This document shows positions 28,651-61,186 of a DNA stretch of 64,000 nucleotides, in pieces (positions within the stretch are counted from its first letter, which is position 1; every line of letters begins with the position of its first letter). The stretch spans positions 1 to 64,000 of the forward strand of contig JAFIEY010000030.1 of the NCBI GenBank assembly GCA_020832345.1, written 5' to 3'. Both the position numbers and the translations under genes were made by a program. A model generated the notes under the pieces. The model was not told where the DNA came from, searched no databases, and worked only from the letters and a program-made list of their open reading frames with translations. Origin of the DNA: Cryomorphaceae bacterium (lineage in GTDB: Bacteria; Bacteroidota; Bacteroidia; Flavobacteriales; Schleiferiaceae).

Positions 28651-31600
28651 TCAACGACGAATTACACGGATGGTCTTTTCACCCTCTCGCCAACCAACGC
28701 GTACCAAATACACGCCTGAGGGAAGATTATCAAGGGACAACCGATACGTTTCCCCGCGCTCCACCGTCTTCAAAACAGTTTGACCAAAGAGATTGATAAC
28801 TTCAACATATTCAATTTGTTCATTGGATGTTAAGGTCAACAACCCTTCTGTGGGATTGGGGTAAGCGGACAACTTATATGACGGGGCAAAAGCTTTATTG
28901 CTCAAGGTATTTACACCCTCCACAGCAATATTGTTAAAATGCACCCGATTTCCGTTATCGGCCCGCATATCGGGACCATCAAATCGGATTCGGATTTTAA
29001 AATCCGGATTGTTGTTTGCCCGACTAACGGCGGAAAAATCAATTTCATAAAATCCGTAACTATTTTGAAGTGAAAGTGCTGAATTTGTCAAGCCGGTTGT
29101 TGACCACTCAGAGCCATTCCAGTAATCAATACGCAAAATATCCGCAGCGCCATCATCTTCTGCGGCAAAAGAAAGCACAATTTCCTTTTTGCCGTAGGTG
29201 GAAAATTGCATGATCATTTCGTTTTCACTTGAACCAATTCTAAAAGGCTGTTTAATTTGTAGCCCCCGAACATTGGCATTTGAAAAGGGGATATCATTAT
29301 TAGCGCTTGCGCGGTAATTTATATCGGTTGGTGCGTTCCTCCTTTCCATGGATGCTTTTCGCCAATTGTTGTGACTACTATTGAAAGGATAGCCCTGCAA
29401 GCAAGAATTATACTGAATGGTGGCGTGTGCGCCACTTGCTGAATAAGTCGCCACCATACTATCCAACGGCTGGTTATTGGGCAATTCAGTGTCCATCACC
29501 CAGAAATAAATAACCTCTGGATTGGTATCGTTGATGAAGTTGGCCTGTATTTGCAGATTGACATCACGGGTAATTACAAGTGAATCGTCGGTGCTGCTGA
29601 TGTCTCCTGACCAATGCGTAAAAATGAACCCGGGATTGGCCCTTGCCACAAGGGTAATTGGAATATCGTTGAAATAAACGCCATCCCAGGGATAGGGCTG
29701 ATTTCTCACCCCAACCGTTCCCTTTTTAATATCAACCGTATTAATGGTGATATAACCTGCGATGGTATCGGATACGTTTAATGTGGTGTTGAAAGTTCCG
29801 GTAAGATTAAAGAAAGAAACCAGTGTATCCCTTTGCCGGCTGGGATGTTCCACGCCGTAAGTGATCAGGTTTTGTCGCTCGGAAGCCAAGTAGTAATGAT
29901 CTCTATCTGATCGATGTAAATCTTCGGCAAGGTATGGTTCAACCACATCGCGAATAGAATCGGCCACCTCTTCAAATCGCCAGGGAGAAAAGGCGGTATT
30001 GATTAAATCGGCAAATCTGGTGAGGTATGGAATGTTAAATTTATCGTTGGTAATCATTTTTCCATAAAAGGAAATATTGGTCAATGTCAACCAGTTGGGA
30101 TTTGCCCATAAGGAAACAAAATTCTGGGTCAAATTCATGGCAGCTTCAAAATCTTGAATATCAAAACGCCATTTACCATCGCCATAAGTGGAGTTTTCAG
30201 GATTGCGAACCCGCCAAAAATTTCGTTCATAGCTATCGTCGGACGAATAGATTTGGAAAATCAAATGGTCGATATAGTTTTCCATATCGAAATGGCTGGC
30301 CACCCAATCGTAAATACTATCTACAGAGAGATCGCTGTGTCGCACATGTTGTCGAAAATCGGCAAAATCCGTAAAATCCGCGGGTTCGCCTTCGCTGAGT
30401 TCACAACTAAATCCATTACACCTAATTTGGATTATATTGTCGGAATCCAGCCCAAATTGATTGGCGTAATGATGGCGATCAATACGGTCGCGAATGGCTG
30501 AAATGCCCCAGTATTCACCATTTATAAAGTGAATAATTGGTCGGTTTCGCATCACCATCGGATGAAATGGCTCAAACATTCGACTAAAGAAAACATCGTA
30601 ATAAACGGCACCACCCGTTCCATCTGAGCGAAGCATCAACCGTTTATAGGTATCCTTTTCGGATCCGGTAGCGCCTATTAGGTCACGGTCAAAAAGCCCC
30701 GGCAAGGTAAACGTACTTTCCTGATGATAATCTCCACGAGCGTAAAGGCGCAGATTTTTTATCATAAAAATTCGGGAATTATTACCGTGAATACGAAAAC
30801 CCACATCCTGATTGAGAATAGAGTTAAAATTTTGCGGTTCAAACATTTCCACATTCATCGGATATTCCCATGCGCGGCCTCTTCGCCAAAAATTATTCCA
30901 GTCGGGGCGCCACCATTGGTTGTCATTTGGGTTATTGGCACGCCATGTATCAAAATCTACGCCGGCTGTGTAAATGCCGTCATCATAATCAAAAAGGTGT
31001 TTTTCTGGCGTTGTAAGGGACACAACAGGGATATTGTATGGATTGCCATTTGGCCATACAAAATAAGTTTGAGTAGCGATTTGCGAGGGAATGTTTCCAA
31101 TGTAAGCCCGCGCCCGAACAACCGTCCCCTTTCGCACTGGGGTAGGCGGATTATACATGGGGAATTGTGAGGGATTTTTTTTGGTAAGGCTATCAGGCTG
31201 ATTGCTTCTATCGGCGATATTAATTGGATTATTGTATATATGGGATTCGTATTTAGAAGCCAACAAAGCACCGGGCGGATCAGAGGGATCGCGCTGATAT
31301 TGGTTTTTATACGAAAATACTGTTCCGGAAACATTGTTGATATCCGGCTCTGAGCCGTCAAGTGTATAAACAATGGTTACGTTGGGGTTTACGTGATTTA
31401 GGGAAAGGGTGAAGTTGGCATTATATAAACCGGAGGTGTGGGAGAAAAAAGGCGGTGTCAATAAATTCGCTAAACCAGTGCCCGTATTTGGTGCATTTGG
31501 TGTTGGTGTATAAAAAAACAGCCAGCTTCCAGTGCCGTTGGGCTGGCGTCCATAAGAAACGTCCATCTGCAAAGTGGTCGCCGGAACAAAATCGACCTGC

Positions 31601-31983
31601 AAGCTATCGGGTCGGGTAAGCAGCAAATCTTCACCTGATGCACTAATGCTAAAATTTGTATGTAACGGTTGTGCCGGATTATTTCGATCTTTTCCCGAAG
31701 CCCAAATCAAAAGATAGGTATTAGGCGCAATAGAAATCTGGGGGAACGTCCAGCGAAAAGGTTGATTGGCATCATCGGACAGTCCGTATCCATCTAAGTC
31801 TATCGTATCTGTACCGAAGTTATATATTTCAATCCAATCCTCAAAATCATTATCCTCATCAGCGATGGTGGTGCGATTGGAAGCCATAAATTCGTTGATG
31901 GCTATATTTTGTCCGAAAATTACATTTGGGAAAATTGCAATAAAAAGTAGTTTAATAAAAGCAGTGAGATTTAATTTCATCAA
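28651..31983 (-). CDS. Secreted lamin-tail/CotH protein 1 with T9SS type A signal
   Basis: 1110 residues. Order: signal peptide (cut near FGQ, residue 24); lamin-tail domain (about 25-115, INEFMASNRTTIADEDNDFEDWIEIYN); chitobiase-type C-terminal fold (about 175-260, VTIVYTLDGSEPDI); CotH kinase-like domain (about 310-700, VGFRIHGNNSR, YKRLMLRSDGTGG, INGEYWGISAIRDRID); an InlB-like repeat (FTHWSGDISSTDDSL); a beta-sandwich; and a C-terminal T9SS type A sorting domain (YPNPTEGLLTL to IRVIRR). CotH proteins are atypical kinases known from spore coats and fungi. The presumed catalytic motif here is D611-F-E613, whereas the two paralogues have D-F-D, so activity is uncertain. Closest to paralogue 3. 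Substrate and role unknown. Confidence 0.88.
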   Translation of the reverse strand: MMKLNLTAFIKLLFIAIFPNVIFGQNIAINEFMASNRTTIADEDNDFEDWIEIYNFGTDTIDLDGYGLSDDANQPFRWTFPQISIAPNTYLLIWASGKDRNNPAQPLHTNFSISASGEDLLLTRPDSLQVDFVPATTLQMDVSYGRQPNGTGSWLFFYTPTPNAPNTGTGLANLLTPPFFSHTSGLYNANFTLSLNHVNPNVTIVYTLDGSEPDINNVSGTVFSYKNQYQRDPSDPPGALLASKYESHIYNNPINIADRSNQPDSLTKKNPSQFPMYNPPTPVRKGTVVRARAYIGNIPSQIATQTYFVWPNGNPYNIPVVSLTTPEKHLFDYDDGIYTAGVDFDTWRANNPNDNQWWRPDWNNFWRRGRAWEYPMNVEMFEPQNFNSILNQDVGFRIHGNNSRIFMIKNLRLYARGDYHQESTFTLPGLFDRDLIGATGSEKDTYKRLMLRSDGTGGAVYYDVFFSRMFEPFHPMVMRNRPIIHFINGEYWGISAIRDRIDRHHYANQFGLDSDNIIQIRCNGFSCELSEGEPADFTDFADFRQHVRHSDLSVDSIYDWVASHFDMENYIDHLIFQIYSSDDSYERNFWRVRNPENSTYGDGKWRFDIQDFEAAMNLTQNFVSLWANPNWLTLTNISFYGKMITNDKFNIPYLTRFADLINTAFSPWRFEEVADSIRDVVEPYLAEDLHRSDRDHYYLASERQNLITYGVEHPSRQRDTLVSFFNLTGTFNTTLNVSDTIAGYITINTVDIKKGTVGVRNQPYPWDGVYFNDIPITLVARANPGFIFTHWSGDISSTDDSLVITRDVNLQIQANFINDTNPEVIYFWVMDTELPNNQPLDSMVATYSASGAHATIQYNSCLQGYPFNSSHNNWRKASMERRNAPTDINYRASANNDIPFSNANVRGLQIKQPFRIGSSENEMIMQFSTYGKKEIVLSFAAEDDGAADILRIDYWNGSEWSTTGLTNSALSLQNSYGFYEIDFSAVSRANNNPDFKIRIRFDGPDMRADNGNRVHFNNIAVEGVNTLSNKAFAPSYKLSAYPNPTEGLLTLTSNEQIEYVEVINLFGQTVLKTVERGETYRLSLDNLPSGVYLVRVGWREGEKTIRVIRR

Positions 31984-32018
31984 TCCAGTGGTTTACAAGT
32001 GGGTTTTCTTGAAAACGA

Positions 32019-32026
32019 CAAAAATA
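32019..32026 (-). promoter_or_regulatory. Candidate -7 box for CotH gene 1
   Basis: Leftward TATTTTTG, 35 nt before the ATG at 31983. No -33 match at 19-21 nt. Confidence 0.4.
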
Positions 32027-32122
32027 GTCAAAAACAAGGAAGTAACAGCTTTTTTATATGAAAACATGAACTTTACATGGTTTTTATTAACGGAAGTGCA
32101 GTTTTTTTAAGTCTCAAATTAT

Positions 32123-32177
32123 AAGTCTGCCCCAAAAAGTTCCTTTCTGCCAAAATCATCTTTTTTGGAGTAAACCC
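32123..32177 (-). repeat. 55-bp short copy of the MITE-like repeat
   Basis: AAGTCTGCCCCAAAAAG to TTTTTTGGAGTAAACCC, with the middle of the element missing. Terminal repeats carry several changes and the flanks (AATTAT/AATCTT) no longer match, so this is an old copy. It lies between the divergent CotH 1 and LamG genes. Confidence 0.8.
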
Positions 32178-32316
32178 AATCTTAAAATAAATAATCAGAA
32201 AGATAAAATACGATAGTAATAGTTTCTAAAACTTTTGTTTATTTTTGTTGTTTAATAATTCTTTAAAAAAATCATGAGATTTTGAGGCTCACTTTTCCTC
32301 AAGCCCATTCACTTAA

Positions 32317-34824
32317 ATGAGAACGAAAATATTCCTTTTCACAATTGCGCTAATAGGCCATTTTTCAATGGCTATTTCTGCTCAAAACTTAACTGGAGCA
32401 GAACGTTGTTTTTCGTCCACAGGAAATGGTTATGTCAATATCCCCAATTTCCCCCCAACAAGCTTTCCAATAAGCATAACTTTCTGGTTTCACCGAAATA
32501 ACCAAGGCGGCGTACAGGCGATTTTCTCCACAGACAATACGTTGGGTGGATACCATGGTATTCACGTACAGTACAGATTTAACAATCAAATAGAAGTGTC
32601 GTACGGAACAGGAAATTGCTATGCCCCTCAATGCAGGAGAGGTTGGTTAGTTGACATACCCAACGCCATGCACCCCATAAATACATGGATGCACGTCGCC
32701 ATTGTATATTCTTCGTCAACCGATACCGATATATACATCGATGGCCTTCTTCGTCCAAAAATAAGCACGGGCTCAGGCTCTACCACAATGATAACCGGAA
32801 CCAATCCCACCGCAAGAATTGGAACCTACCAACATTCCGCAGGTGGATCCAGCTTCAATCATTTCCTGAGCCAAATAGACGAGCTTTCCGTTTGGAATAT
32901 TGCACTAACAGCGAATCAAGTGCGGGATAATATGTGTCGGAAAACGCCAACCCCAAGCCCTGGATTAATCGCTTATTACAAATTAGACGAACCGCTACCC
33001 TCGGATTCAGTAATCGACCATTCAGGTAATGGTCGTCATGGAGTGAATGTTGGAGGCGTTACCAAACCAATATCCCAAGCGCAAATTGGTGATGAGTCAA
33101 CCCATTACTATGGCTCCATGGCCTTATTCAACCTACAGCACACCAATATTTTTGATGACACCATAAATGTTGATCTCCAAGGTGTGTATTACGGTTTACA
33201 AGCTTATACCACATACGGACTTCCCAATAACTTTGGACTTCATGCAAATGGCGACTCTTCTTGTTCGCCACAAAGGTTTTACGGATTTAGAGCAGTGGGG
33301 AACACATCTGCCCCAGGGGGCAATGTTGATGTAGAAATCATTTCAAACCCACAGCCTACAAATGTATTATGGCGACCCAACCTAACGGGGAATTTCAACC
33401 ACCCCCCTACTACGCCAATTTCAGGAGGTGTGTCAGTCAATTACAACGCCCAAACCAGAGAAATTTTGCCCATCCTTGGAACAGATAATTTTGATAGTGG
33501 CTTACCGGATACACTAGCTACCTGCACCTTTCCCGACACTCTTTTTGCGAACCCCATGCCTCCTAAATTAGGCGCGTATCTTTGGGATGATCTATCAACA
33601 GGAAATTCACGTGTCGTTAGCCAGCCCGGGACATATTACCTATCCGGGTACACCATTTGCGAAACCGATACCATTCCTTTTATCGACAGTGTTGTGGTGG
33701 CATTTGATGTCATCACCTGGGACACCACCGTTTTTATTTGCCACAACGATACATTCACCATAAACAATATACCACTTACAACCCCGGGGACGCATACCTT
33801 TAACCTCACGAATCCCAATCAATGCGACTCTACCATAATTGTAAATCTGGACTTTTTTCCACCTGATGTTCACGACACAACATTTGTTAAGTGTGAGGAA
33901 GACAGCATCAACTTTTTGGGTGTGTATTATTACAACTCCGGCAATTATGTCATTTCTTTTCCCGATTCATTAAATTGCGGTTTGGATTTAGTGATCAATA
34001 TTGTCAATCACCCAAGAACCACTTTTGATACAGTATTTGAAATATGCCCCGAAGAAGAAGTCGTTTTTTTGGGGGACACATTTACCAGCGAAGGAACATA
34101 TTCTATGCTTGTGGCAAGTGGCGGTTTATGCCTCGACGAATGGCTTATTACCATTGATTACCTTGTTGATCCTATTATAAAAAACATCCACGTAGATCTC
34201 TGCCCGGGTGAAGTCCATATTGCAAATGGAATGACCTTCCGCCAAGCTGGCACCTTTACCTTTCCCATTGAAAACCCAAATGGCTGTGATACAACCGTTC
34301 ACCTCACCATAGACCGCGTAAACGATCCCCCATTTTATTTAACACCCCCCGAAGACATGCCATTTTGCAGGATTGACGGTGGCGAAATTCGAGTGGTTGG
34401 ATTATCATCAGGACAGTGGCCCAGATGGAGTACAGGGGAGCAATCAACCTCAATCCTGGTATTTGAAGATGGTTGGTATTGGGCTGAATTTGGCGAATAT
34501 TGCCCAATTATCCGCGATAGTATATTCGTTTATGGAGAGGATTGTAGCCCCCGATTATTTATTCCAAATGCCTTTTCACCAAACGGAACAGGAATTAATG
34601 AACGCTTTCAAATAAAAGGTCAATACATCAAAACCTTTGAAATCTCCATTTTTAACCGATGGGGTCAACAAGTATTTCACAGTACCGATATAAGCTATTC
34701 GTGGGACGGCACAAATAATGGAAAGCTTGTCCCCAACGGTGTATATACATACGTTGTAAAAGCTACTAGTGAAATGAATCGGGAGGTAATTCAGGAAACG
34801 GGAACTGTGATGATGATAAGATAG
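32317..34824 (+). CDS. Secreted LamG/CHU_C protein with T9SS type B signal
   Basis: 835 residues. Signal peptide MRTKIFLFTIALIGHFSMA.. to SAQ; a LamG/concanavalin-like domain (about 28-210, with ITFWFHRNNQ, NTWMHVAIVYSS, DIYIDGLLRP and LSQIDELSVWNIALT); a linker with several beta-stretches; four tandem repeats of about 50 residues (about 463-668), each with a C..D..F..G..Y...GTY core and a CD(S/T) pattern; and a gliding-motility-associated C-terminal domain (IPNAFSPNGTGINERF, IFNRWGQQVF, WDGTNNGKLVPNGVYTYVV), which is the T9SS type B sorting signal. It is probably a cell-surface or secreted sugar-binding protein. It is transcribed against the flanking CotH genes. Confidence 0.9.
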   Translation: MRTKIFLFTIALIGHFSMAISAQNLTGAERCFSSTGNGYVNIPNFPPTSFPISITFWFHRNNQGGVQAIFSTDNTLGGYHGIHVQYRFNNQIEVSYGTGNCYAPQCRRGWLVDIPNAMHPINTWMHVAIVYSSSTDTDIYIDGLLRPKISTGSGSTTMITGTNPTARIGTYQHSAGGSSFNHFLSQIDELSVWNIALTANQVRDNMCRKTPTPSPGLIAYYKLDEPLPSDSVIDHSGNGRHGVNVGGVTKPISQAQIGDESTHYYGSMALFNLQHTNIFDDTINVDLQGVYYGLQAYTTYGLPNNFGLHANGDSSCSPQRFYGFRAVGNTSAPGGNVDVEIISNPQPTNVLWRPNLTGNFNHPPTTPISGGVSVNYNAQTREILPILGTDNFDSGLPDTLATCTFPDTLFANPMPPKLGAYLWDDLSTGNSRVVSQPGTYYLSGYTICETDTIPFIDSVVVAFDVITWDTTVFICHNDTFTINNIPLTTPGTHTFNLTNPNQCDSTIIVNLDFFPPDVHDTTFVKCEEDSINFLGVYYYNSGNYVISFPDSLNCGLDLVINIVNHPRTTFDTVFEICPEEEVVFLGDTFTSEGTYSMLVASGGLCLDEWLITIDYLVDPIIKNIHVDLCPGEVHIANGMTFRQAGTFTFPIENPNGCDTTVHLTIDRVNDPPFYLTPPEDMPFCRIDGGEIRVVGLSSGQWPRWSTGEQSTSILVFEDGWYWAEFGEYCPIIRDSIFVYGEDCSPRLFIPNAFSPNGTGINERFQIKGQYIKTFEISIFNRWGQQVFHSTDISYSWDGTNNGKLVPNGVYTYVVKATSEMNREVIQETGTVMMIR

Positions 34825-34858
34825 CTGTTTGCTAAAAAGCACCGAAGATTCAAATCAT

Positions 34859-34994
34859 GAGTCCACTCCAAAAAGGATGATTTCAATCAAAATCGAAGGG
34901 GTTTTTGAACCGGAGGTAACTAACTGTTAGTGAAGATTCAAAAATCTAACGACAGGGAAAGTTTTGGCAGAAAGGGACTTTTTGGAGTGGACTC
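34859..34994 (+). repeat. MITE-like repeat, full copy, perfect 17-bp terminal repeats
   Basis: 136 bp, starting GAGTCCACTCCAAAAAG and ending with its exact complement CTTTTTGGAGTGGACTC. The internal blocks CAAAATC/GTTTTG and TTTTTGAA/TTCAAAAA are inverted around the apex. Flanks AATCAT/AGCCAT agree at 4 of 6. It lies between the convergent ends of the LamG and CotH 2 genes. Confidence 0.9.
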
Positions 34995-35011
34995 AGCCAT
35001 TGATCACAATC

Positions 35012-38000
35012 TTACTGCCGTACCACCCGAACAACCCTTTCACCCCCGGCCCACTGCACACGAACCAAATACATTCCTGCTGGTAAATTGCCAAGCGAAA
35101 AAGTCTCCTTTTCCATTTGCCCTGCCCTTCTTAAAACCACACTTCCACTGAGATCCATCACCTCGATTTGAGAAATGATGCCATCGGCCTGTATGTTGAG
35201 CAAATGACTTGTGGGATTGGGATAAACCAGCAATGATGGCTCGGCATTAGCTTCTCCAAAAGCCTCGTTACTCAAGGTGTTTACTCCCTCAACCGCTATG
35301 TTATTTATATGGACGCGATTTCCGTTATCCGCACGCATATTTGCACCATCAAAACGAATTCTCACCCTAAACTCGGGGTTGTGACTGGCATTTGAAACAC
35401 CCGAAAAGTCTGCTTCCATAAAGGTGTAGGCCGTCTGTAATGGAAATACCGACTGAGGCAATCCAGCAGATGTCCATTGGGTACCGTCCCAGTATTCTAT
35501 CAACACTTCTTCCGCTGCACCATCGTCTTCCGCAGCAAAGGATACTTTGATGTCCTTTTTCCCTTCGGTGGAAATTTTAAAAACAATGGCATTTTCTTCA
35601 TTTCCCACCCGAAAAGGTTGTCTTATTTGCAAACCTCTCATATCCTCTGGACGAAAATCTTTGTTCGCATTTGCCATCGGACGGTAGTTTACCGGAGTGG
35701 GTGCGTTCCTACGCTCCAATGAAGCCTTGCGCCAGTTTGCATGACCTGCGGCAAATGGATACCCAGAAAAACTAGACTCATACTTAATGACTGCCGGAGT
35801 ATTGGGATTATGACTATAAGTTGACACCAGGCTATCCAAGGGACTGTTGTTGGGCACATTTTTGTCAATCATCCAGAAATACAAAACATCAGGGCTGGTA
35901 TTGTTGGTGTAATTGGCCTGAATCTGCATGTTTCCGGATGCCGTTACCACTATCGTATCATTTGATCCGCTTACGTCACCGGACCAGTGCGAAAAGACAA
36001 ATCCCGGTCTGGCTTGTGCGATTAAAGTTACAGGGACTTCCTTGAAATAAACACCCTCCCATGGATAAGGAAATTCGTCGAAGCCCGGCGAACCCTCCTT
36101 CACATCGATGGTATTTACCTTGACGAAACCGGCTTCTTCGTGTGAAAGCGACAACATGAGATTGTAAGTGCCATCAAGGTTAAAGAAAGCTTCTATGCTG
36201 TCTCTCTGATTATCTGGTTGATTAATAGCAAAATTAGTGAGGTTCGCCTTTTCACCCGGCTCGTAAAAATTATCTCTATTTGAACGATTTTTATCTTCCA
36301 TAAGGTACGGCGCTACCTCTTCAAACGTTTTGTCTATAACTTTTTGAATTTGAATAGGCGTTAAAACTGAGTTTAACAAATCGGCAAAACGATTGATGAA
36401 ATACGCTTTAAACGAATCATTTTCTAACAGATTACCCAAAAGTGCGCTATTGGGGTTATTGGTAATATCTGCGCGATAAGCCAACCAGTTTCTGTCAAAA
36501 TTCAAAGCCGCATCAAAATCCTGCGTATCAAACCGCCATTTTCCATCGCCAAAAGCACTGTTTTCAGGCACCCTAACCCGCCAAACATTTCTCTCATAAC
36601 TATTGTCTCCGGAAAATATTTGCAACACCATGTGATCTGTAAAACTTTTGATATCCAACATATCCAATGCCTGTTCATAGTGGGCTGAATTGCTCATATC
36701 ATTATCGACAATAAAATTCCGCATACTATAAAAAAGTGAAGATTCACCGGGAAGACCTTCGTTCATTTCGCAATTACTGCCCTGGCAACTCATTTGAATA
36801 ATGTTGTCGGGATTTAAATTAAACTGGTTGGCGTAGTGGTGTCTATCAATACGATCGCGAATGGAGGTAATGCCCCAAAACTCGCCATTGATAAAGTGAA
36901 TGGCCGGCTTTACGCGCATCACACCAGAAAATACCGGCTGCAACAAACGATTCATAACAACATCATAAGAAACGAAGCCGCCTGTTCCGTCAGAACGCAA
37001 TAAGATTCTCTTGTACAAATCGGTATTTGGCCCTTCCGCGCCATATACAGATTGATCAAAAAGGTTGTGTTGAAAAACGCTTGACTGATCGTAGGAACCC
37101 CTGGCATACAACCGAAGGTTTTTGATTAAAAACGTACGTGAATTATTTCCGTGAATTCTAACCCCACCGTGTTGGCTAAGTACCGAGGTGAAGCCATTTG
37201 GCTCATAGATTTCAATGTGAACATCCTTTTCTGCCTCCCGTCCTCTGCGGTTGTAATTATTCCAATTGGGTCTCCACCATTGGGCATTTGTGGGGTTATT
37301 GGCCCGCCATGTATCAAAATCTACACCCGAGGTATATATACCGTCATCGTAATCGAAAAGGTTTCCTTCATTTGTCTTAAGTGAAATAACCGGTAAATCG
37401 TAAGGGTTTCCATTTGGCCACACAAAGAATGTTTTGACCACTTCCGGAGAAGCTATACCATTGACATAAGCCCTTACGCGAAGGGTTACTCCTTTGCGAA
37501 CAGGCGATGGCGGGACATATATAACATCCTGACGGGTATTTCGTGTTGAAAATACATTAGGGTCTTGATCGCGATCAGAAATAGAAATAGGCGCTGAATA
37601 TAAATGTGTTTTATGCTGAGAGGTCAAAAACGAACCCGTGGGATCACCTGGATTTAATGCATATTGGTTTTTATACTGAAAACTTGAACCTGCGGTATCC
37701 GCTATTCGAGGCTCCGAGCCATCGATGGTATAAACAATGATTGCACCCGGACTAAAATGAAATACGGAAAGATCAAATGCCGCATTATAAATTCCGCCAT
37801 CATGTGAAAGAAAAGGCGGATTGAGCAGGTGATTTAAACTTTGTCCGGCATTTACCGAACTGGGCGTTGGGGTGTAGTAAAAGGCCCAAGAACTTGTTCC
37901 GTCAGACACTCGTCCAAATGAAACATCGGGATGAAGTCCAGGGGTTTCCAAAAAGTCAGCAACATCACCATTGGGCTTGGTCAACACCAATTCGTCACCG

Positions 38001-38335
38001 GATGCGCTAATGGTAAAAGGTGTATGTAAAAATATCGAATCCCTGTTTTTTCCCGATGCCCAGACTAAAATATGACTACCCGGTAATATGGTCGTATCGG
38101 GAAATACCCATGTGAAGGGCAACGCGCTGTCCTTTGACAAGCCGTACCCCAAAAGAGAAATCGTATCGTTTCCCGGATTAAATATTTCGATCCAATCCTC
38201 AAAGTCATTATCTTCATCAGAAATGTTTGCGCGATTGGACGCCATTATTTCATTAATCATAACACCTTGAGCAAAGGCGGTATTGATGAGAAACGCAAAT
38301 AATAAAACGATGATGGTGAAAATATACTTTTTCAT
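35012..38335 (-). CDS. Secreted lamin-tail/CotH protein 2 with T9SS type A signal
   Basis: 1107 residues with the same domain order as protein 1: signal peptide (cut after AFAQ), lamin tail (INEIMASNRANISDEDNDFEDWIEIFN), chitobiase-type fold (IIVYTIDGSEPRI), CotH kinase-like domain (YDDGIYTSGVDFDTW, GVRIHGNNSR, YKRILLRSDGTGG, GITSIRDRIDRHHYAN), InlB-like repeat (FSHWSGDVSGSNDTI) and type A sorting domain (VYPNPTSHLLNI to VRVVRQ). The kinase metal motif is D606-F-D608. By eye it is the most divergent of the three although it lies between the other two, for example in the segment after RRGREAEK and in the region before SLFYSMRNF. Its stop is 17 nt from a full repeat copy. Confidence 0.88.
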   Translation of the reverse strand: MKKYIFTIIVLLFAFLINTAFAQGVMINEIMASNRANISDEDNDFEDWIEIFNPGNDTISLLGYGLSKDSALPFTWVFPDTTILPGSHILVWASGKNRDSIFLHTPFTISASGDELVLTKPNGDVADFLETPGLHPDVSFGRVSDGTSSWAFYYTPTPSSVNAGQSLNHLLNPPFLSHDGGIYNAAFDLSVFHFSPGAIIVYTIDGSEPRIADTAGSSFQYKNQYALNPGDPTGSFLTSQHKTHLYSAPISISDRDQDPNVFSTRNTRQDVIYVPPSPVRKGVTLRVRAYVNGIASPEVVKTFFVWPNGNPYDLPVISLKTNEGNLFDYDDGIYTSGVDFDTWRANNPTNAQWWRPNWNNYNRRGREAEKDVHIEIYEPNGFTSVLSQHGGVRIHGNNSRTFLIKNLRLYARGSYDQSSVFQHNLFDQSVYGAEGPNTDLYKRILLRSDGTGGFVSYDVVMNRLLQPVFSGVMRVKPAIHFINGEFWGITSIRDRIDRHHYANQFNLNPDNIIQMSCQGSNCEMNEGLPGESSLFYSMRNFIVDNDMSNSAHYEQALDMLDIKSFTDHMVLQIFSGDNSYERNVWRVRVPENSAFGDGKWRFDTQDFDAALNFDRNWLAYRADITNNPNSALLGNLLENDSFKAYFINRFADLLNSVLTPIQIQKVIDKTFEEVAPYLMEDKNRSNRDNFYEPGEKANLTNFAINQPDNQRDSIEAFFNLDGTYNLMLSLSHEEAGFVKVNTIDVKEGSPGFDEFPYPWEGVYFKEVPVTLIAQARPGFVFSHWSGDVSGSNDTIVVTASGNMQIQANYTNNTSPDVLYFWMIDKNVPNNSPLDSLVSTYSHNPNTPAVIKYESSFSGYPFAAGHANWRKASLERRNAPTPVNYRPMANANKDFRPEDMRGLQIRQPFRVGNEENAIVFKISTEGKKDIKVSFAAEDDGAAEEVLIEYWDGTQWTSAGLPQSVFPLQTAYTFMEADFSGVSNASHNPEFRVRIRFDGANMRADNGNRVHINNIAVEGVNTLSNEAFGEANAEPSLLVYPNPTSHLLNIQADGIISQIEVMDLSGSVVLRRAGQMEKETFSLGNLPAGMYLVRVQWAGGERVVRVVRQ

Positions 38336-38521
38336 GGTTGAAACTTTAGTTCGTGTTAATTATCCTCTACAAATGCATAATTCGTTTTGGTTATCACATT
38401 GAGTACTAAAGTCAAGCCACGTAAAATAAACACACCAAATAACTCAATATCAATTATTTGACATTATGAAAAAAGTAGTTTTGTTCCAAAAAATGGAAAA
38501 AAGGATTGAAAAAAGGAAAAA

Positions 38522-41500
38522 TTATTTTTTGATAAGACGGATGATTTTTTCACCTTCAGACCATTTCACCCTGACCAAATACATGCCTGAGGGCAGTGAT
38601 TCCAAAGAAAACTGCCAAGAATCACCTTCACCACGGGGTCTTAAAATTGTTTGCCCGAAAAGATTCATCACCTCAACCGAGATTATATAATCATTGGATT
38701 GCAGGGTGAGATTTCCTTCCGTGGGGTTGGGAAAGGCTTTTAACTTATAACTGGGCACAAAAGGCTTTTTACTCAAAGTATTGACACCTTCCACCGCAAT
38801 GTTGTTTAAGTGAACGCGATTCCCATTGTCGGCACGCATATCTGCACCGTCAAATCGAATTCGGATTCTAAAGTTGGGGTTATTATTGGCCTGGTTTACG
38901 CCCGAGAAATCAATTTGGTACAACTGATAAGAATTGCCCAATGGCAACAAATGGTCTGAAAGGCCACCATGTGTCCACTGATTTCCGTCCCAATAATCTA
39001 TTCGTATCAAATCGGCAGCCCCTTGATCTTCCGCAGCAAATGAAAGTTTAATTTCCTTTTTTGCACGCGTGGAAAAGTTCATGATAATTGTGTTTTCTTC
39101 TCCGCTCAACCTAAATGGCTGACGAATTTGTATCCCACGCATATTTACCTCTCCAAAGGGAAGGTCGTTATTTGCACTAGCGCGGTAGTTTACAACGGTT
39201 GGGGCATTCCTCCGTTCCAGTGATGCCTTTCTCCAATTGGGATGATTGCTGTTGAACGGATATCCCTGAAGACACGATTGGTAATGAATTACTGCATGCT
39301 CCCCACTAGCGGAATATGTGGCGACTAAACTATCAAGGGGTTGATTGTTGGGCAATGCATTATCCATCAACCAGAAATAGATCACATCCGGCATGGTATC
39401 GTTGATAAAATTTGCCTGAATTTGAAGATTGGAATCTCTAGTAATGTGCAGGGTATCATCAGTATTGGAAATATCACCGGACCAATGGGTAAAAATAAAC
39501 CCGGGATTTGCATTGGCAATTAGGGTAATTGGCACGTCATTAAAATACACACCTGACCAAGGGTAGGGTTGAGATTCCACACCAACAGTCCCGTCTTTTA
39601 TTTCCACCGTATTGATTTTTACATACCCGGCCATCGTATCCGAAACGTTTAAAGTGACGTTATACTTTCCGGAAAGTCCAAAATACGAAACGAGAGAATC
39701 TCGCTGTCTATCGGGGTGTTCATTACTGTAATCAATTAATTCTTGTTCCTCGGATGGCAAATAGTAATCGCGTTCAGAGCGGTGATAATCTTCGATTAAA
39801 TACGGAAAAACAGCACTCATGACAGAATCTACAACAGCTTGAAACCGCCATGGAACGAATGTCGAGTTGATCAAATCTGCAAAACGCACCAGAAACCTAT
39901 GGGTGAAGTTTTCATTTTCCAAAAGCTTTCCAAAAATTGTATTTCCCGTTGATCCTGCTGGATTGTTAAATGCCCAGGTTGCCAACCAATTTTGCGTGAG
40001 CTTTAGGGACGCATCAAAATCCTGTACATCAACCCGCCACTTTCCGTCACCATAAGGCGCGTTGGAAACATTTTTCACACGCCAAAAGTTTCTTTCATAG
40101 CTGTCATCGGAGCTATAAACTTGCAAAACCATGTGATCGATGAAGTTTTCGATATCCATCAGACTATCAATTCTTTCAAAGGCTGCGTTCGATGAAAAAT
40201 TACTATGTAAAATGGAATCCTTAAAATCGTTAAACGCCAATAGATCCAGTGAGTCTCCTTCGCCTAAATCACAATTTATACCCTTGCAGTCAATTTGAAT
40301 AATATCATCAGCATCCAAACCAAACTGATTGGCGTAATGATGCCTATCAATTCTATCCCTGATGGCGGATATGCCCCAGAACTCTCCATTAATAAAATGG
40401 ATTACAGGTGAATTGCGCATCAAACCCGGAAACATGGGTAGCATCAATTCGCTCATGACCACATCGAAAAAAACAGGCCCTCCGGTTCCGTCAGTCCTCA
40501 GCATCAATCGTTTGTAAACATCAGTATTGGTTCCATGCGCATATTTCACATCACTTTTAAAAATACCGGGAAGCGTTAGGGTGCTTTCCTGATGGTATTG
40601 TCCGCGAGCATACAAACGTAAATTTTTTATCCGCCGGGTTCTCGAATTATTTCCGTGAATACGAAACCCGACATCTTGATTAAGAATGGAGCTAAAGTTA
40701 TTCGCTTCAAAGATTTCGATATTCATAGGATATTCCCATTCCCTGCCCCTGCGCCAGTAGTTGTTCCACTCCGGACGCCACCATTGGGTATTGGTCGGAT
40801 TATTCGTCCGCCAGTTGTCGAAATCCACACCGGCAGTATAAATGCCATCATTATAATCAAATAAATACTTTTCGGGTGTGGTGAGCGAAATAACAGGGAT
40901 GTTGTAAGGGTTTCCATTTGGCCATACAAAATAGGTTTGGGTAGCCGTTTTGGAGCCAATATCGCCAATATAGACTTTTGCCCGAACGACAGTGCCTTTC
41001 CGCACTGGGCCTGGCGGAAAATACATAGGATGCTGCGATGAATTTTTCTTTGTCAAGCTATCCTGAGCAACACTTCGATTTACAATATTAATACCTCCAC
41101 TGTAAATATGCGATTGGTAATTAGCGCCCAAAAACGACCCTGTAGAATCAGTAGCGGGATTTCGTTTATATTCGTTTTTATATTGAAAATTCGTTCCGGC
41201 AATATTATTAATATCCGGCTCGGATCCATCCAAAGTATATACAATGGTTACATTTGGGTTGGCGTGATTTATAGTCAGTGTAAAATTACTCGTGTAAAGT
41301 CCGGAAGCATGAGAAAAAAATGGCGGATTAAGCAGAGATGTCAATCCGGTTCCGATGTTTGAAGTATTGGGGGTAGGCGTGTAAAAATACAACCAACTGC
41401 CCGTCCCGTTTGGCTGGCGGCCATAGGAAACGTCCATCGCCAGGGTGGTAGCGGGAACAAAATCAATTTGCACACTATCGTTTCTGGTAAGCAGGATATC

Positions 41501-41848
41501 CTCTCCCGATGCACTAATACTAAAGTTGGTGTGCAATGGCAAACCCGGGGTTGTTCTGTTTTTTCCCGAAGCCCAAACCAGCAGGTATTCACCCGGTGGC
41601 AATTCAATTTGCGGAAAAGTCCATCTAAACGGATCAGCAGCATTATCCGACAAACCGTAGCCGAATAGGTTTATTGAATCCGCACCGAAATTGTAAAGCT
41701 CTATCCAATCCTCGTAGTCGTCATCTTCATCGCTAATGGTAGTTCGATTAGATGCCATGATTTCATTTATTGAAATGCTTTGGGCGTTACAGATAAAAGT
41801 AAAAACAAAAAACAGGGAAGTCAGGGTACTACACTTAAAAGTATGCAT
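38522..41848 (-). CDS. Secreted lamin-tail/CotH protein 3 with T9SS type A signal
   Basis: 1108 residues, same layout as proteins 1 and 2: signal peptide (to CNAQ), lamin tail (INEIMASNRTTISDEDDDYEDWIELYN), chitobiase-type fold (VTIVYTLDGSEPDI), CotH domain (YNDGIYTAGVDFDNW, VGFRIHGNNSR, YKRLMLRTDGTGG, GISAIRDRIDRHHYAN), InlB-like repeat (FTHWSGDISNTDDTL) and type A sorting domain (FPNPTEGNLTL to IRLIKK). The kinase metal motif is D610-F-D612. It resembles protein 1 far more than protein 2. The promoter region holds a 14-bp dyad that encloses the -7 box. Like the others it should be exported by SprA and attached to the surface or released; substrate unknown. Confidence 0.88.
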   Translation of the reverse strand: MHTFKCSTLTSLFFVFTFICNAQSISINEIMASNRTTISDEDDDYEDWIELYNFGADSINLFGYGLSDNAADPFRWTFPQIELPPGEYLLVWASGKNRTTPGLPLHTNFSISASGEDILLTRNDSVQIDFVPATTLAMDVSYGRQPNGTGSWLYFYTPTPNTSNIGTGLTSLLNPPFFSHASGLYTSNFTLTINHANPNVTIVYTLDGSEPDINNIAGTNFQYKNEYKRNPATDSTGSFLGANYQSHIYSGGINIVNRSVAQDSLTKKNSSQHPMYFPPGPVRKGTVVRAKVYIGDIGSKTATQTYFVWPNGNPYNIPVISLTTPEKYLFDYNDGIYTAGVDFDNWRTNNPTNTQWWRPEWNNYWRRGREWEYPMNIEIFEANNFSSILNQDVGFRIHGNNSRTRRIKNLRLYARGQYHQESTLTLPGIFKSDVKYAHGTNTDVYKRLMLRTDGTGGPVFFDVVMSELMLPMFPGLMRNSPVIHFINGEFWGISAIRDRIDRHHYANQFGLDADDIIQIDCKGINCDLGEGDSLDLLAFNDFKDSILHSNFSSNAAFERIDSLMDIENFIDHMVLQVYSSDDSYERNFWRVKNVSNAPYGDGKWRVDVQDFDASLKLTQNWLATWAFNNPAGSTGNTIFGKLLENENFTHRFLVRFADLINSTFVPWRFQAVVDSVMSAVFPYLIEDYHRSERDYYLPSEEQELIDYSNEHPDRQRDSLVSYFGLSGKYNVTLNVSDTMAGYVKINTVEIKDGTVGVESQPYPWSGVYFNDVPITLIANANPGFIFTHWSGDISNTDDTLHITRDSNLQIQANFINDTMPDVIYFWLMDNALPNNQPLDSLVATYSASGEHAVIHYQSCLQGYPFNSNHPNWRKASLERRNAPTVVNYRASANNDLPFGEVNMRGIQIRQPFRLSGEENTIIMNFSTRAKKEIKLSFAAEDQGAADLIRIDYWDGNQWTHGGLSDHLLPLGNSYQLYQIDFSGVNQANNNPNFRIRIRFDGADMRADNGNRVHLNNIAVEGVNTLSKKPFVPSYKLKAFPNPTEGNLTLQSNDYIISVEVMNLFGQTILRPRGEGDSWQFSLESLPSGMYLVRVKWSEGEKIIRLIKK

Positions 41849-41854
41849 TATTTT

Positions 41855-41918
41855 AATTCTACAATTTTTTAAAATCTCACCGAGACAAATTTAAAATTGT
41901 AGAATTTGTTTATACAAA
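41855..41918 (-). promoter_or_regulatory. Promoter of CotH gene 3 inside a 14-bp inverted repeat
   Basis: Leftward TTTG (41918-41915), a 21-nt spacer and TAAATTTG (41893-41886) match the consensus, giving a start near 41880. AATTCTACAATTTT (41855-41868) and AAAATTGTAGAATT (41893-41906) are perfect complements, one arm in the leader 7 nt before the ATG, the other in the spacer of the promoter. Confidence 0.6.
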
Positions 41919-43864: not shown

Positions 43865-44019
43865 CAAGCCCTTAAAAACCCCTTGTGGGCAGAATAGGTT
43901 TAATTTTTTTGAATTGTATAAATTGATTTGTTTCGACCATTAAATTTTCCTCTAATAAATTGTGAGGCTTAATTATTGGAGTGCATCAATTTCATCAATA
44001 TTGTTTAAATCACTTTTTT

Positions 44020-47000
44020 ATGCAAACGCGATCAACACTTATAAAAACAATTAGCACACTAATTGTTTTAGCTGTTACCCTTCCAGCGGCTTTTGGTCAA
44101 AACCCATTTGCCCCTGCGTTAGATTTTAATGTGTTTCTTGAAAAGGACGCAATTTTATCCACAAATGAATCCGAAGGTCCCATCGCCATCGGTCGTGATT
44201 TAACGCTGGCAGGCAGTTATGTTGTCGCTGCTCACAGTGCCGGCACCTTTTCCGTTGGTGGCAACAACATCGGATTATTGGTTGACGGTCAAGTTCATTA
44301 CCAAAGTGGAAATGGTCTTCAAGTTAACCAAAATGGATATGTGAAAATTGGCACTGGCGGTGGCTCTACAGTATGGTATTACGATCAAAACAATGCCGCA
44401 TCACCAATAAGAATTACCCCAACTCCCAATTACAATTCCTCACCGCGGATAATGCTTCAGGCCAATTCAAATCAATTAAATGTTGGGGTAAACAACAATC
44501 CGGTAATCGAATCCGGATTGATCGATTTTGCCGCTGCTTTTCAACTACTGCAAAGCTCTTCGCAAAATATTGCGCAAAATACACACAATGCAAATTTGAC
44601 CAACGCAAACGGAAATCCAATCCCAAATAACAATTTCCCAAATCAGGTGAAAATCGACCTATCTAATGGTGTAAATTATTTGAATATTTCGGGAAGCGAT
44701 TTAAACAGCATTCAGGTTTTTACCTATAATCAACAACCCAACGCTTCGAGAATTCTGGTCATCAACGTCGATGCGCCCGGAACTTTTAATTGGAATGTCT
44801 GGAATCAAGCGGGCATTGGATTTCAACAAAGCAAGTACATTCTCTATAATTTCCACAATACTACACAACTAAATATTGTTGGAAACTCCACAATTTCGGG
44901 TTCTATTATGGCCCCTTATGCAGATATTGTGAAAACAGCAAATCAATCTAACATTCAAGGACAGATCATTGGGAAATCATTACACCACTCAGGTGGCGAA
45001 ATGCATTATGCTATTTTTTCCGGAAACATCCCCGGATCCGGCGCAACACCAACACCTCCACCTTCAGGCGTAAAACCCACCGCCGATTTCAAAATCAACA
45101 ACGACATCCAATGTTTGGACGGAAATAGTTTTGTTTTTGACAATAAAACGAAAGCACTGGATTGCATCGATTTGAATGTCACAACGCACAATACGCCCCA
45201 AGATGCTGAGAACAAATTTAATGACTTATATTTTTCCGCAGAAGGTCGCAGTGGAAACAATGCACTGAACGGAACTTTTGAATTGGACATTCACAATGTT
45301 TCTCCTTATAACGTACTTGTCGATCAGCAATTTGTTTGGCAAAATGGTGTTGACAAACCCTTTAGTATCGTTTACGACCCCACCGCAAACGGAGATGACA
45401 AATTTGTGTTTACCATCGGTGATCCAAATATTGGGGTCGGTGTTCGGGTGCTCAAACTCGATCCGGTAGCTGCGGGGTATCCCAACGATATCAATGGTTT
45501 TTTGCTGTACGCTCGTATCGCCGAAAATACCACATTACTTATTACCGACGTTGAGGTAAATGGAATACCGGTAAATACAGATTTTGGCGAAATCAATCCA
45601 CCAAAATCTAAAACCGTAAACCATATTTTTAGTGGAAACGCCCTGGACAATGGAATAAACATAACCGGGAAAGTTCGTCTTGCCTGGACAGGAAATATTC
45701 CGCAAAACTCCAACATGAACTTCAATTTTAAAATGGGTAACATAGACTGTATTCCAGCAGAAGTTCACCAGGCGAGTGCACCCATTAGTTATGAATGGGA
45801 TTTTGGCGACAATACCACCAGCACACAAATGAATCCTACCAAAACATATTCAAACGCCGGCACTTATGATGTCCGTCTTATTGGAGAAAACACCTACGGA
45901 AAAGACACCTTAATCAAGCAGGTTACAGTCATTGACCCAATCCTTACAACCCCAACTCAATCCACCATAGCCGATGGTTCCGGATATATTACCAAACAAG
46001 CCTTAATCGCAGATAGCGCGAATTATTCTGCTGTACACTGGGAGTTGGTTGACAGCGCCAATAACCTTTTCCCAAATCAGTATAAGGTTGACTTTACTTT
46101 TACAGTAAGTGGATTTTTTCAAGTCATCGCACACCTTACAGATACCAATGGTTGCACCAGCACAGCTAATGTTAATTTCAGTATCGCTTCGGAAGATGTG
46201 AGTTCTGGTTATGACGGAGCCATCGAGAGTGAAAGTCTGGGAGACGCTGTTTCTAAAGTCTATGTGAATAGGAAAATTAAAAGCGAACCCACTTTATTCA
46301 ACAAATCAGATGCCCTCATTTTCAAAAAATGGACGCTAAAATCGGGAACATCAACTCAAAATCTGGCGCAAATGTTCCCCACACAAATGATTCCTGGGGA
46401 TGTGGCACATATCACTTCACCTACTGATATTCTAGACTATACCATTGCACACGAAGTGTTAAGTGTCGATTTTTCTGTACAGGGAAAAACGCAAGGTGTT
46501 GTCTTAGGCGTCAAAACACTAGATCGGGTTTACAACCACACCAAAGCATCTTGTGACAGATTGCGCGGCGCAGAAATCCTCCTGGTGAAGGAAGTCAATG
46601 TAAATGGTTATGACCTACTGATGCAGGTGATGCGCCAAAGAAACGGTGAAATTGAATACGCCATTTCCTTTGCCATTGGTAAAAACAACAACGACACTGA
46701 ATACACACTGCAATCGGGTTGGTTTGTAAATCATTACACAGCTTCTAATGAGGTTTACAACTTTCAGGTTTGGACGGTTTTACCCGAACATACCATTAAA
46801 CTAACCGAGGATATTTTCAATAACCTGAATGATTTCCTTCCCGTATCACAAAGTGAAAGTCCAAAAATACCTTTGTCGTATGTATCCAAAATCAGTCGGG
46901 CTCGTGAAAACTTAATTTTAAAGTTGCACAGTGTGGCGCCTGAAAACCATATTGAAATTACCATGGAAGAAAATTTCAGTGAAACCAATGGGTATTCGCA

Positions 47001-47892
47001 GAGATATAACCCAATGACTTCAAACTACGAACAAACCTTTACACTCAATGTAAAAGATGGATATGAGTACGATGGGTTAATCAAGGTGAATGGGGATATT
47101 CAGGATGCGTTTTACCATGCAGATGGAAACTGGGGATTGGACTTCGACAAGGACTACACCGTCATTGAGCAATATACAGTTTCCAATGATTTTGAGCGGA
47201 TTTATGAAGATGATGAATTGCCGATTCATCGAAATGTGACCTTGCGCATGCATACCGATTACGATTACATCACCCTTTACAAATCATTACTTCCCGGAAA
47301 CCTCCCTGCAGATTACTCCGAGTATGGGTATGTTTCATTTAAAGCTACGGGCAGTGGTTTGATGGATATCGGACTGGTGAAGTCCTCCATCACCGATTGG
47401 AAAAAACAGTATAAGGCAACTTTGAACATTAGAGATTTCGAACAGACCTATTACATTCCGTTTTCACATTTCCAATCCTCAGGGCCAAAAACCCCGATGA
47501 GTGCAGATGATTTAACCCTATTGACCTTTACCTTCCTGGCGACGGAAGCGGGCACCAACAACTTGGATCTCAATATCCGTGATGTTAAATTCACCAAATA
47601 TGCGCCACCCGGCTATGAGGATTTGTTGAACACAATGACGGATGAATTTTATGTGTATCCCAATCCGTCAAACGGTGCATTCAACTGTTTGCTTTACAGT
47701 GAAACCAAAACCGAGGTGAACATTGTAATTAGAGACATCACCGGAGTAGTTGTACATACTGAAAAAGCCAATATCATTGAAGGTAGAAATGAATTCAACT
47801 TTGACCTTAATGTTAGATATAGCACCATGCTGTTTATGCACATCTATAACGAAGAAACTGATTTTGGGACTTCTAAATTAATCGTCAAGTAA
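44020..47892 (+). CDS. Large secreted choice-of-anchor-A/PKD protein with T9SS type A signal
   Basis: 1290 residues from ATG 44020, giving signal peptide MQTRSTLIKTISTLIVLAV.. to FGQ; a GTG 13 codons upstream is less likely. Residues about 25-330 form a choice-of-anchor-A domain (FNVFLEKDAILSTNESEGPIA, GNSTISGSIMAPYADIV, GQIIGKSL). A PKD-type domain lies at about 585-640 (YEWDFGDNTTSTQMNPTKTYSNAGTYDV). Residues about 700-1200 are long beta-rich stretches with no motif I know. The last 80 residues are a type A sorting domain (FYVYPNPSNGAFNCL, ending SKLIVK). It is a surface or secreted, adhesin-like protein. A strong intrinsic terminator follows 27 nt after the stop. Confidence 0.85.
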   Translation: MQTRSTLIKTISTLIVLAVTLPAAFGQNPFAPALDFNVFLEKDAILSTNESEGPIAIGRDLTLAGSYVVAAHSAGTFSVGGNNIGLLVDGQVHYQSGNGLQVNQNGYVKIGTGGGSTVWYYDQNNAASPIRITPTPNYNSSPRIMLQANSNQLNVGVNNNPVIESGLIDFAAAFQLLQSSSQNIAQNTHNANLTNANGNPIPNNNFPNQVKIDLSNGVNYLNISGSDLNSIQVFTYNQQPNASRILVINVDAPGTFNWNVWNQAGIGFQQSKYILYNFHNTTQLNIVGNSTISGSIMAPYADIVKTANQSNIQGQIIGKSLHHSGGEMHYAIFSGNIPGSGATPTPPPSGVKPTADFKINNDIQCLDGNSFVFDNKTKALDCIDLNVTTHNTPQDAENKFNDLYFSAEGRSGNNALNGTFELDIHNVSPYNVLVDQQFVWQNGVDKPFSIVYDPTANGDDKFVFTIGDPNIGVGVRVLKLDPVAAGYPNDINGFLLYARIAENTTLLITDVEVNGIPVNTDFGEINPPKSKTVNHIFSGNALDNGINITGKVRLAWTGNIPQNSNMNFNFKMGNIDCIPAEVHQASAPISYEWDFGDNTTSTQMNPTKTYSNAGTYDVRLIGENTYGKDTLIKQVTVIDPILTTPTQSTIADGSGYITKQALIADSANYSAVHWELVDSANNLFPNQYKVDFTFTVSGFFQVIAHLTDTNGCTSTANVNFSIASEDVSSGYDGAIESESLGDAVSKVYVNRKIKSEPTLFNKSDALIFKKWTLKSGTSTQNLAQMFPTQMIPGDVAHITSPTDILDYTIAHEVLSVDFSVQGKTQGVVLGVKTLDRVYNHTKASCDRLRGAEILLVKEVNVNGYDLLMQVMRQRNGEIEYAISFAIGKNNNDTEYTLQSGWFVNHYTASNEVYNFQVWTVLPEHTIKLTEDIFNNLNDFLPVSQSESPKIPLSYVSKISRARENLILKLHSVAPENHIEITMEENFSETNGYSQRYNPMTSNYEQTFTLNVKDGYEYDGLIKVNGDIQDAFYHADGNWGLDFDKDYTVIEQYTVSNDFERIYEDDELPIHRNVTLRMHTDYDYITLYKSLLPGNLPADYSEYGYVSFKATGSGLMDIGLVKSSITDWKKQYKATLNIRDFEQTYYIPFSHFQSSGPKTPMSADDLTLLTFTFLATEAGTNNLDLNIRDVKFTKYAPPGYEDLLNTMTDEFYVYPNPSNGAFNCLLYSETKTEVNIVIRDITGVVVHTEKANIIEGRNEFNFDLNVRYSTMLFMHIYNEETDFGTSKLIVK

Positions 47893-60619: not shown

Positions 60620-61186
60620 TTACTCCCACCTGGTTGTTTCAATCAAATGAATCATTTGCTGATACATATATTCGTTTACCGGCCGAAGTGAGTCTTCATT
60701 GGGTACCGCATTAAAATAAACCACCCCCCGCAGAAAATGGTTGTTGCTATCGGTTAGAAAAAACTGGGTATGGGTAGCGGCATCACCTACCAATTGATAC
60801 AAAGTGCCATAAACCTTATCCTCTTCATTGATAAACAGTTTTTCTTTTATCCCGTCTGCTTTTACCGTATGTCTAAAAACCAAATTATGCATATCGTTCA
60901 GCAGCGTATCGATGTTGTTGTCCACCGGACGATAAGTCAACTGCACCATTGCATTAAATCGCGGGTAATGAATATCAAACCAACAGTTTTCGCGTTTGGG
61001 TCGATGTACGGTAAACTCGTGTACTTTAAAAGTATAGGGGCAATTATCACCAAAAGATTTAAAAGTATCTGGAGGTAAATCAATTCGGAAGTACCCAACG
61101 GGTTTTGGAATGGGATCCGAACCACAAGCTGCAAGTCCCAAAAAAACCATCAGCAATAATACATTTTTACTCATCTTCGATTTCAT
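60620..61186 (-). CDS. gldD: Gliding motility lipoprotein GldD
   Basis: 188 residues. MKSKMSKNVLLLMVFLGLAAC is a lipoprotein signal; a second ATG at codon 5 (61174) would overlap the gldE stop as ATGAGTAA and is equally possible. Conserved GldD blocks: PKPVGYFRIDLP, CPYTFKVHEF, CWFDIHYPRFNA, VQLTYRPVDNN, and a C-terminal RGVVYFNAVPNEDSL. GldD is needed for gliding and T9SS function in Flavobacterium; its exact role is unsettled. Overlaps the end of gldE by 20 bp, last gene of the cluster. Confidence 0.95.
   Translation of the reverse strand: MKSKMSKNVLLLMVFLGLAACGSDPIPKPVGYFRIDLPPDTFKSFGDNCPYTFKVHEFTVHRPKRENCWFDIHYPRFNAMVQLTYRPVDNNIDTLLNDMHNLVFRHTVKADGIKEKLFINEEDKVYGTLYQLVGDAATHTQFFLTDSNNHFLRGVVYFNAVPNEDSLRPVNEYMYQQMIHLIETTRWE

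Follow-up and report, generated by a model that had tools for sequence, protein, structure and literature searches.

A trio of CotH paralogs in a Cryomorphaceae bacterium: candidate surface binding proteins of a short-loop CotH subfamily

The three large CotH-domain proteins (hereafter P1, P2 and P3) encoded in the analyzed window, the 64,000-nucleotide stretch at positions 1 to 64,000 of contig JAFIEY010000030.1 from a Cryomorphaceae bacterium, belong, as judged by sequence alignment and phylogeny, to a monophyletic short-loop subfamily of CotH proteins that is newly recognized here. The reading that we favor, with a probability of about one half, is that these proteins act as binding proteins on the cell surface, with the kinase fold put to a new use. 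Each protein would be a chassis that carries lamin-tail, chitobiase/Fn3-like, CotH kinase-fold, InlB-like and CBM/adhesin-like modules. In the short-loop ancestor, the catalytic loop would have been shortened and the Asp/Asn pair lost in most descendants, with the fold and the metal-site aspartate kept. The kinase fold would now serve mainly as an extracellular binding module: P2 and the proteins of the C244 type (named after another gene of this genome) would be pseudokinase-like, phosphate transfer would still be possible for P1 and P3, which have the Asp/Asn pair at kinase spacing, and the fast-changing C-lobes would enable P1 and P3 to recognize different targets.

Domain architecture and predicted structure

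The trio ORFs (28651-31983, 35012-38335 and 38522-41848, all on the minus strand) consist of 1110, 1107 and 1108 codons. For P1, translation from the ATG at 31980 yields a protein of 1109 amino acids (28651..31980), whereas P2 (35012..38335) and P3 (38522..41848) comprise 1107 and 1108 amino acids, respectively. Comparison with Pfam and NCBIfam profiles reveals a domain order common to all three proteins, namely, lamin tail (LTD), CHB_HEX_C_1/Fn3_assoc, CotH, InlB-like and a type A sorting domain of the type IX secretion system (T9SS), and a C-terminal beta-sandwich lies in front of the latter. In P1 and P2, the score of the InlB-like stretch falls short of the curated cut-off. Thus, the description given by the sequence-only reading, three large CotH paralogs that share one domain order from lamin tail to T9SS signal, holds. 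The assignment to the CotH family is firm: profile PF08757 scores 92.9, 75.9 and 83.4 bits in P1, P2 and P3, against a curated cut-off of 23.8. The C-terminal sorting domain TIGR04183 scores 41.9, 40.8 and 38.8 bits (cut-off 23), and hydrophobic N-termini are visible by eye in the three translations. Given these sorting domains, P1, P2 and P3 are probably outer-surface proteins exported by the T9SS; we infer both export and a binding role from domains only.

A model of P3 residues 312-740 (39629..40915, minus strand), built from alignment A4 (121 of 122 rows), is predicted with a mean pLDDT of 92.6 to adopt the CotH kinase fold. A Foldseek search matches it to Bacillus cereus CotH (PDB entry 5jd9) with an E-value of 7.1e-13 and TM scores of 0.65/0.77, and structural superposition yields a Z-score of 32.1 with an rmsd of 2.5 over 324 residues, the next protein having a Z-score of 12.3. 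On the evidence of this model, which covers P3 only, the CotH kinase fold is retained. The adjacent region, residues 745-1035 (38744..39616, minus strand; mean pLDDT 89.6), is predicted to form a CBM/adhesin-like beta-sandwich resembling carbohydrate-binding modules and jelly-roll domains, including the Lys-gingipain adhesin domains (best matches: Foldseek E-value 7.9e-5; Z-score 12.2, rmsd 3.0, 140 residues aligned). This fold is common and thus no sure guide to the ligand.

Scans for sigma-70-like sites and for terminators yielded nothing above shuffled sequences. The Bacteroidota-type promoter consensus is TTTG-N21-TAnnTTTG. A match to this consensus, and nothing beyond such a match, lies at 41886..41918 on the minus strand, with 38 bases separating it from the start of P3 downstream; the window contains 10 matches to the pattern compared to 4.65 expected. 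The same contig encodes the T9SS/gliding protein SprA (3942-11246, minus strand) and the gliding lipoprotein GldD (60620-61186, minus strand). Another predicted T9SS protein, at 43981-47892 on the plus strand, is a 1303-residue protein with an ice-binding-like adhesive domain (pAdhesive_15) and PKD domains; a search of four congeners and one other family member detected no match to it at E<=1e-20.

The shortened catalytic loop

In Bacillus subtilis CotH, the substitutions D228Q and D251A are reported to abolish activity (PMC7821199). Equivalents of D166, N171 and D184 of PKA are described as retained in CotH, which stacks adenine between Tyr142 and Trp245 (PMC12189002). These positions were transferred through the sequence of 5jd9, using a profile (A3) built from four further CotH proteins that the genome encodes: the D-W and D-x-D motifs of the family align to N-F-D and W-D-Y-D of 5jd9, which locates the metal-site Asp as well as the catalytic Asp with its Asn at D+5. 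Only A3 reached 5jd9; N-lobe residue mapping through profile A4 or one other paralog gave no match to it. The loop survey covers 121 of 122 aligned relatives, a set that is biased towards relatives of P3 and from which ORFs with fewer than 850 profile columns and five loci (L097, L098, L105, L108 and L164), taken to be the same contigs as G001, G002, G003, G004 and G009, were left out; a further alignment, A5, comprises 71 of 107 rows.

All 100 relatives outside the short-loop group possess Asp-Trp in the catalytic loop, and 93 of these have Asn at D+5. In each of the 21 short-loop members, Asp-Trp is replaced by a shorter loop: the stretch delimited by identical alignment columns comprises 19 residues in 20 of the 21 and 22 residues in 93 of the 100 others. 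The metal-site Asp (B. subtilis D251, the equivalent of PKA D184) is kept in all 121 rows, including the trio: D610 in the IQDFEA motif of P1 (30142..30159), D606 in TQDFDA of P2 (36509..36526) and D610 in VQDFDA of P3 (40010..40027), all on the minus strand. The loops themselves, also on the minus strand, are SSDDSYERN with D582 and N587 in P1 (30220..30246) and P3 (40088..40114), and SGDNSYERN in P2 (36587..36613), where N578 occupies the Asp position of the other two, resulting in an N/N pair. With the shortened loop aligned by sequence, D582 of P1 and P3 may be equivalent to the catalytic Asp (D228 of B. subtilis, D166 of PKA). At the D582/N587 positions, five of the 21 short-loop members have D/N (P1, P3 and three from Flavobacteriaceae), five have T/S (C244 and its counterparts in congeners) and the remaining 11 have other combinations; Asn at the +5 position (N171 of PKA, which binds metal) is present in seven of the 21 (N587 in P1 and P3, N583 in P2), a count that is subject to the uncertain loop alignment. 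At the position of Trp245, the alignment places Gln in 19 of the 21, including P1, P2 and P3. The 100 DW-loop relatives have H (49), K (17), F (12), Y (11), W (6), N (4) or R (1) at this position, so that, among the relatives aligned, an aromatic residue is not a mark of CotH family membership.

The label "kinase-like" that the proteins had received stands with regard to the fold but is doubtful with regard to the catalytic loop, which is altered across the subfamily and in P2 is devoid of the Asp. The short-loop proteins may have turned to a use other than phosphorylation. Because P1, P3 and the three Flavobacteriaceae members keep the D582/N587 spacing of active CotH, the inferred loss of catalysis may not apply to these five.

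Fam20A is the regulating dead partner of the kinase Fam20C. By analogy, P1 and P3, with D582 and N587 at the D+5=N spacing, could be active extracellular kinases, with P2 as their dead regulatory partner. The presence of D582/N587 together with D610 in P1 and P3, the exchange of the Asp for Asn in P2, the CotH fold retained in the P3 model, and the occurrence of the Fam20A and Fam20C structures among the weaker fold matches are all compatible with such a pairing, but the D582/N587 pair is found in a mere five of 21 short-loop members, and Gln takes the Trp245 position in 19 of 21, even if non-aromatic residues are common in the DW-loop relatives as well. On balance, we consider active kinases with a dead partner, the chief competitor of the favored reading, possible, with the odds clearly against it. 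A broader formulation, under which the short-loop clade would consist of pseudokinase-like proteins or differently acting enzymes on the surface of Bacteroidota, with an array in this genome that pairs possibly active P1/P3 with dead P2 and with C-lobes that diversify towards different surface or environmental targets, appears doubtful.

The favored reading, surface binding proteins with a repurposed fold, draws on a further observation, namely that the differences between P1 and P3 are concentrated in the C-lobe. Over P3 residues 501-700, the two proteins differ at 90 of 200 positions, compared to 213 of 806 elsewhere (Fisher p 7e-7; corrected ratio 2.07), although indels at 620-640 may inflate the number of C-lobe mismatches. 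This ratio is greater than that of all 2571 different-locus pairs of like divergence (median 1.11, maximum 2.04), which, given that the compared pairs share ancestry, does not translate into a p-value; it also exceeds the other 43 ratios among 44 of the 47 same-locus pairs. By a C-lobe/whole measure, P1-P3 stands at 1.75 and four orthologous pairs of the C244 group at 0.72-0.95. The segment that contains the active-site motif shows less variation. This pattern, seen in sequence comparison, suggests diverging target recognition by P1 and P3.

History of the trio and its neighborhood

The outer two proteins of the trio are the closest to each other, as originally noticed: P1 and P3 are identical at 756 of 1106 positions (68.4%), compared to 585 of 1101 (53.1%) for P1-P2 and 594 of 1098 (54.1%) for P2-P3. 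A careful tree of 23 sequences recovers P1 and P3 as sisters with support of 100/100, the trio with P2 as its first branch (99/98), the trio together with the C244 group (97/99), and the short-loop clade (100/100); four congeners are united apart from C244 with only 91/87. A quick tree of 36 rows contains the same groups, with the order among the trio, the C244 group and a Flavobacteriaceae group unresolved. The topology firmly indicates two old duplications, whereby P2 branched off first and P1 and P3 duplicated last.

The trio is present in one of the five genomes of the genus that were examined; the other four encode one close relative each (47-49% identity to P3), which is the ortholog of C244. 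The trio lineage and the C244 type were probably already separate when this genome diverged from the four congeners, which would then have lost the trio; P2 would have split off subsequently, followed by the separation of P1 and P3. The genome with the trio is 4.03 Mb in size and the four congeners 2.3-2.6 Mb.

An origin of the trio by horizontal transfer from Flavobacteriaceae, as opposed to duplication within the genus, is suggested by the distribution of matches at E<=1e-150, which are found in six of 88 genomes of the family, five from the genus (short-loop) and one more (G009) with a DW loop, and by the presence of short-loop genes in Flavobacteriaceae and Crocinitomicaceae. Such transfer is nevertheless improbable, considering that the careful tree joins the trio to C244 and the congeners at 97/99; the quick tree does not settle the placement of the trio.

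Tandem arrays of CotH genes are ordinary among the relatives, as at least 32 of 72 loci contain two or more adjacent same-strand ORFs of the family and at least five contain three; these are lower bounds since the loci end at 10 kb or at contig ends. The 72 loci remain from 77 after the removal of the five loci taken to be duplicates of contigs already in the set. The wide-family scan used the best 80 of 329 confirmed relatives, so that its counts are biased towards relatives of P3. Locus L125 (CALPUN020000125.1), with an LTD-CotH array of the Bacteroidota type, comes from a record titled as a MAG of Bifidobacterium breve and is probably mislabeled or a mixed bin. At locus L165, the DW-loop member from Marinimicrobium alkaliphilum (Pseudomonadota) groups with a MAG of the PVC group among Bacteroidota sequences, possibly through gene transfer. 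The A-B-A' order of the trio, with the like copies on the outside, is uncommon, in agreement with the initial impression: in all five of the other three-copy arrays, a small sample, the closest copies are adjacent.

The placement of P2 between the most similar copies could be explained by gene conversion, as proposed initially, or by recombination that has maintained the likeness of P1 and P3. The silent sites do not bear this out. Within shared codon boxes, the third bases of four-fold sites are identical at 83 of 235 positions for P1-P2, 90 of 288 for P1-P3 and 72 of 230 for P2-P3, that is, 0.31-0.35 for each pair compared to 0.25 at random, so that P1-P3 is as close to saturation as the other pairs; dS is undefined by the NG86 method for the trio pairs and, with silent sites saturated, a test for selection is impossible. 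The longest exact match between trio genes is 20-21 nt, and runs of shared silent codons are no longer than in permuted sequences (reached in 530, 1302 and 1995 of 2000 permutations for P1-P2, P1-P3 and P2-P3, respectively). All seven domain trees recover P1 and P3 as the sister pair, which argues against a mosaic, even though the complete trio is not always recovered from such short pieces. Silent sites, the run test and the domain trees together exclude recent gene conversion; very old conversion is indistinguishable from old duplication on the present data. Conversion as the cause of the order thus appears extremely improbable, and the likeness of P1 and P3 simply reflects the younger duplication.

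Between P1 and P2, and opposed to the trio, the window contains a gene for an 835-residue LamG protein (32317..34824, plus strand) with a Laminin_G_3 domain and a T9SS signal of type B (CHU_C). The trio and this gene had been suggested as a possible surface-modification module. The presence of T9SS signals on all four proteins and the divergent arrangement of the LamG gene and P1, 333 bases apart, would be compatible with a co-inherited operon, but the context in relatives is not: the trio occurs in none of the four congeners, and no relative of the LamG protein is encoded in the regions flanking the 17 further short-loop loci that were examined. Furthermore, LamG relatives are numerous in all six genomes searched, with 28 matches at E<=1e-10 in this genome alone, many of them confined to the C-terminal part; the best full-length relative (G003:C88) is 41% identical. 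Window genes near the trio are likewise missing from the flanks of the 17 loci, barring the gldD block and two genes with weak matches (25-36%). Since the four congeners lack the trio and have, as their single relative, the C244 ortholog, neither the trio nor its combination with the LamG gene is a conserved module, and a co-inherited operon is very improbable.

The gldD block (from 60.6 kb of the window) is syntenic with three congeners; a single short-loop CotH gene adjoins the gldD ortholog in G001 and G004 and lies about 3 kb from it in G002. In a further congener, G003, the homolog of the AlaRac gene, a neighbor of the trio, sits together with three neighbors of C244, for which a rearrangement via CotH copies was considered. 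One of the genes between these neighbors in G003 has an ortholog on a third contig (C59) of the trio genome, so that a simple rearrangement is rejected. On this contig, the ortholog (G000:C59:15552-16715, minus strand, L169; 71% identity) of a G003 gene next to the AlaRac homolog has one internal TGA and is either a pseudogene or affected by a sequence error.

Comparison with known systems

Spore coats are the known setting of CotH kinases. A search of the open-licence literature on CotH in connection with lamin tail, T9SS, pseudokinases, Bacteroidetes and the Flavobacteri outer membrane retrieved no paper on such proteins. The present comparison indicates that, across Bacteroidota, the CotH fold appears repeatedly in multi-domain proteins that are T9SS cargo and are encoded in arrays, and the clade with the fold and the metal-site Asp but a reshaped loop makes it possible to test cleanly at what point a secreted kinase fold ceases to act as an enzyme.

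The trio resembles the spore-coat CotH kinase of B. subtilis and B. cereus (5jd9, 5jda; PF08757) in the CotH domain, the predicted fold and the D251-equivalent Asp; in contrast, the trio proteins have about 12-14% identity to it over the fold, an altered catalytic loop, and a much larger, multi-domain organization as putative T9SS cargo outside any spore context. The secreted kinase-like fold is shared, by weak fold matches, with Fam20C and Fam20A, which are eukaryotic, and the idea of pairing in the trio is an analogy to that system. The D-W-loop LTD-CotH-T9SS proteins of Bacteroidota, e.g., those of Flavobacterium enshiense (L148) and F. suncheonense (L111), form a full-length family with the trio and are often encoded in tandem arrays; they possess Asp-Trp and mostly Asn at D+5, features that the trio lacks in this form. 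The closest resemblance is to the other short-loop proteins, encoded by C244, by one gene per congener, and by genes of Flavobacterium suaedae, Salegentibacter, Mesonia, Aequorivita, Polaribacter and Brumimicrobium, which share the shortened loop, mostly have the QDFE motif, and belong to one clade with the trio; unlike the trio, they rarely form arrays (one of 12 named short-loop loci), and Thr/Ser takes the place of D582/N587 in the C244 group.
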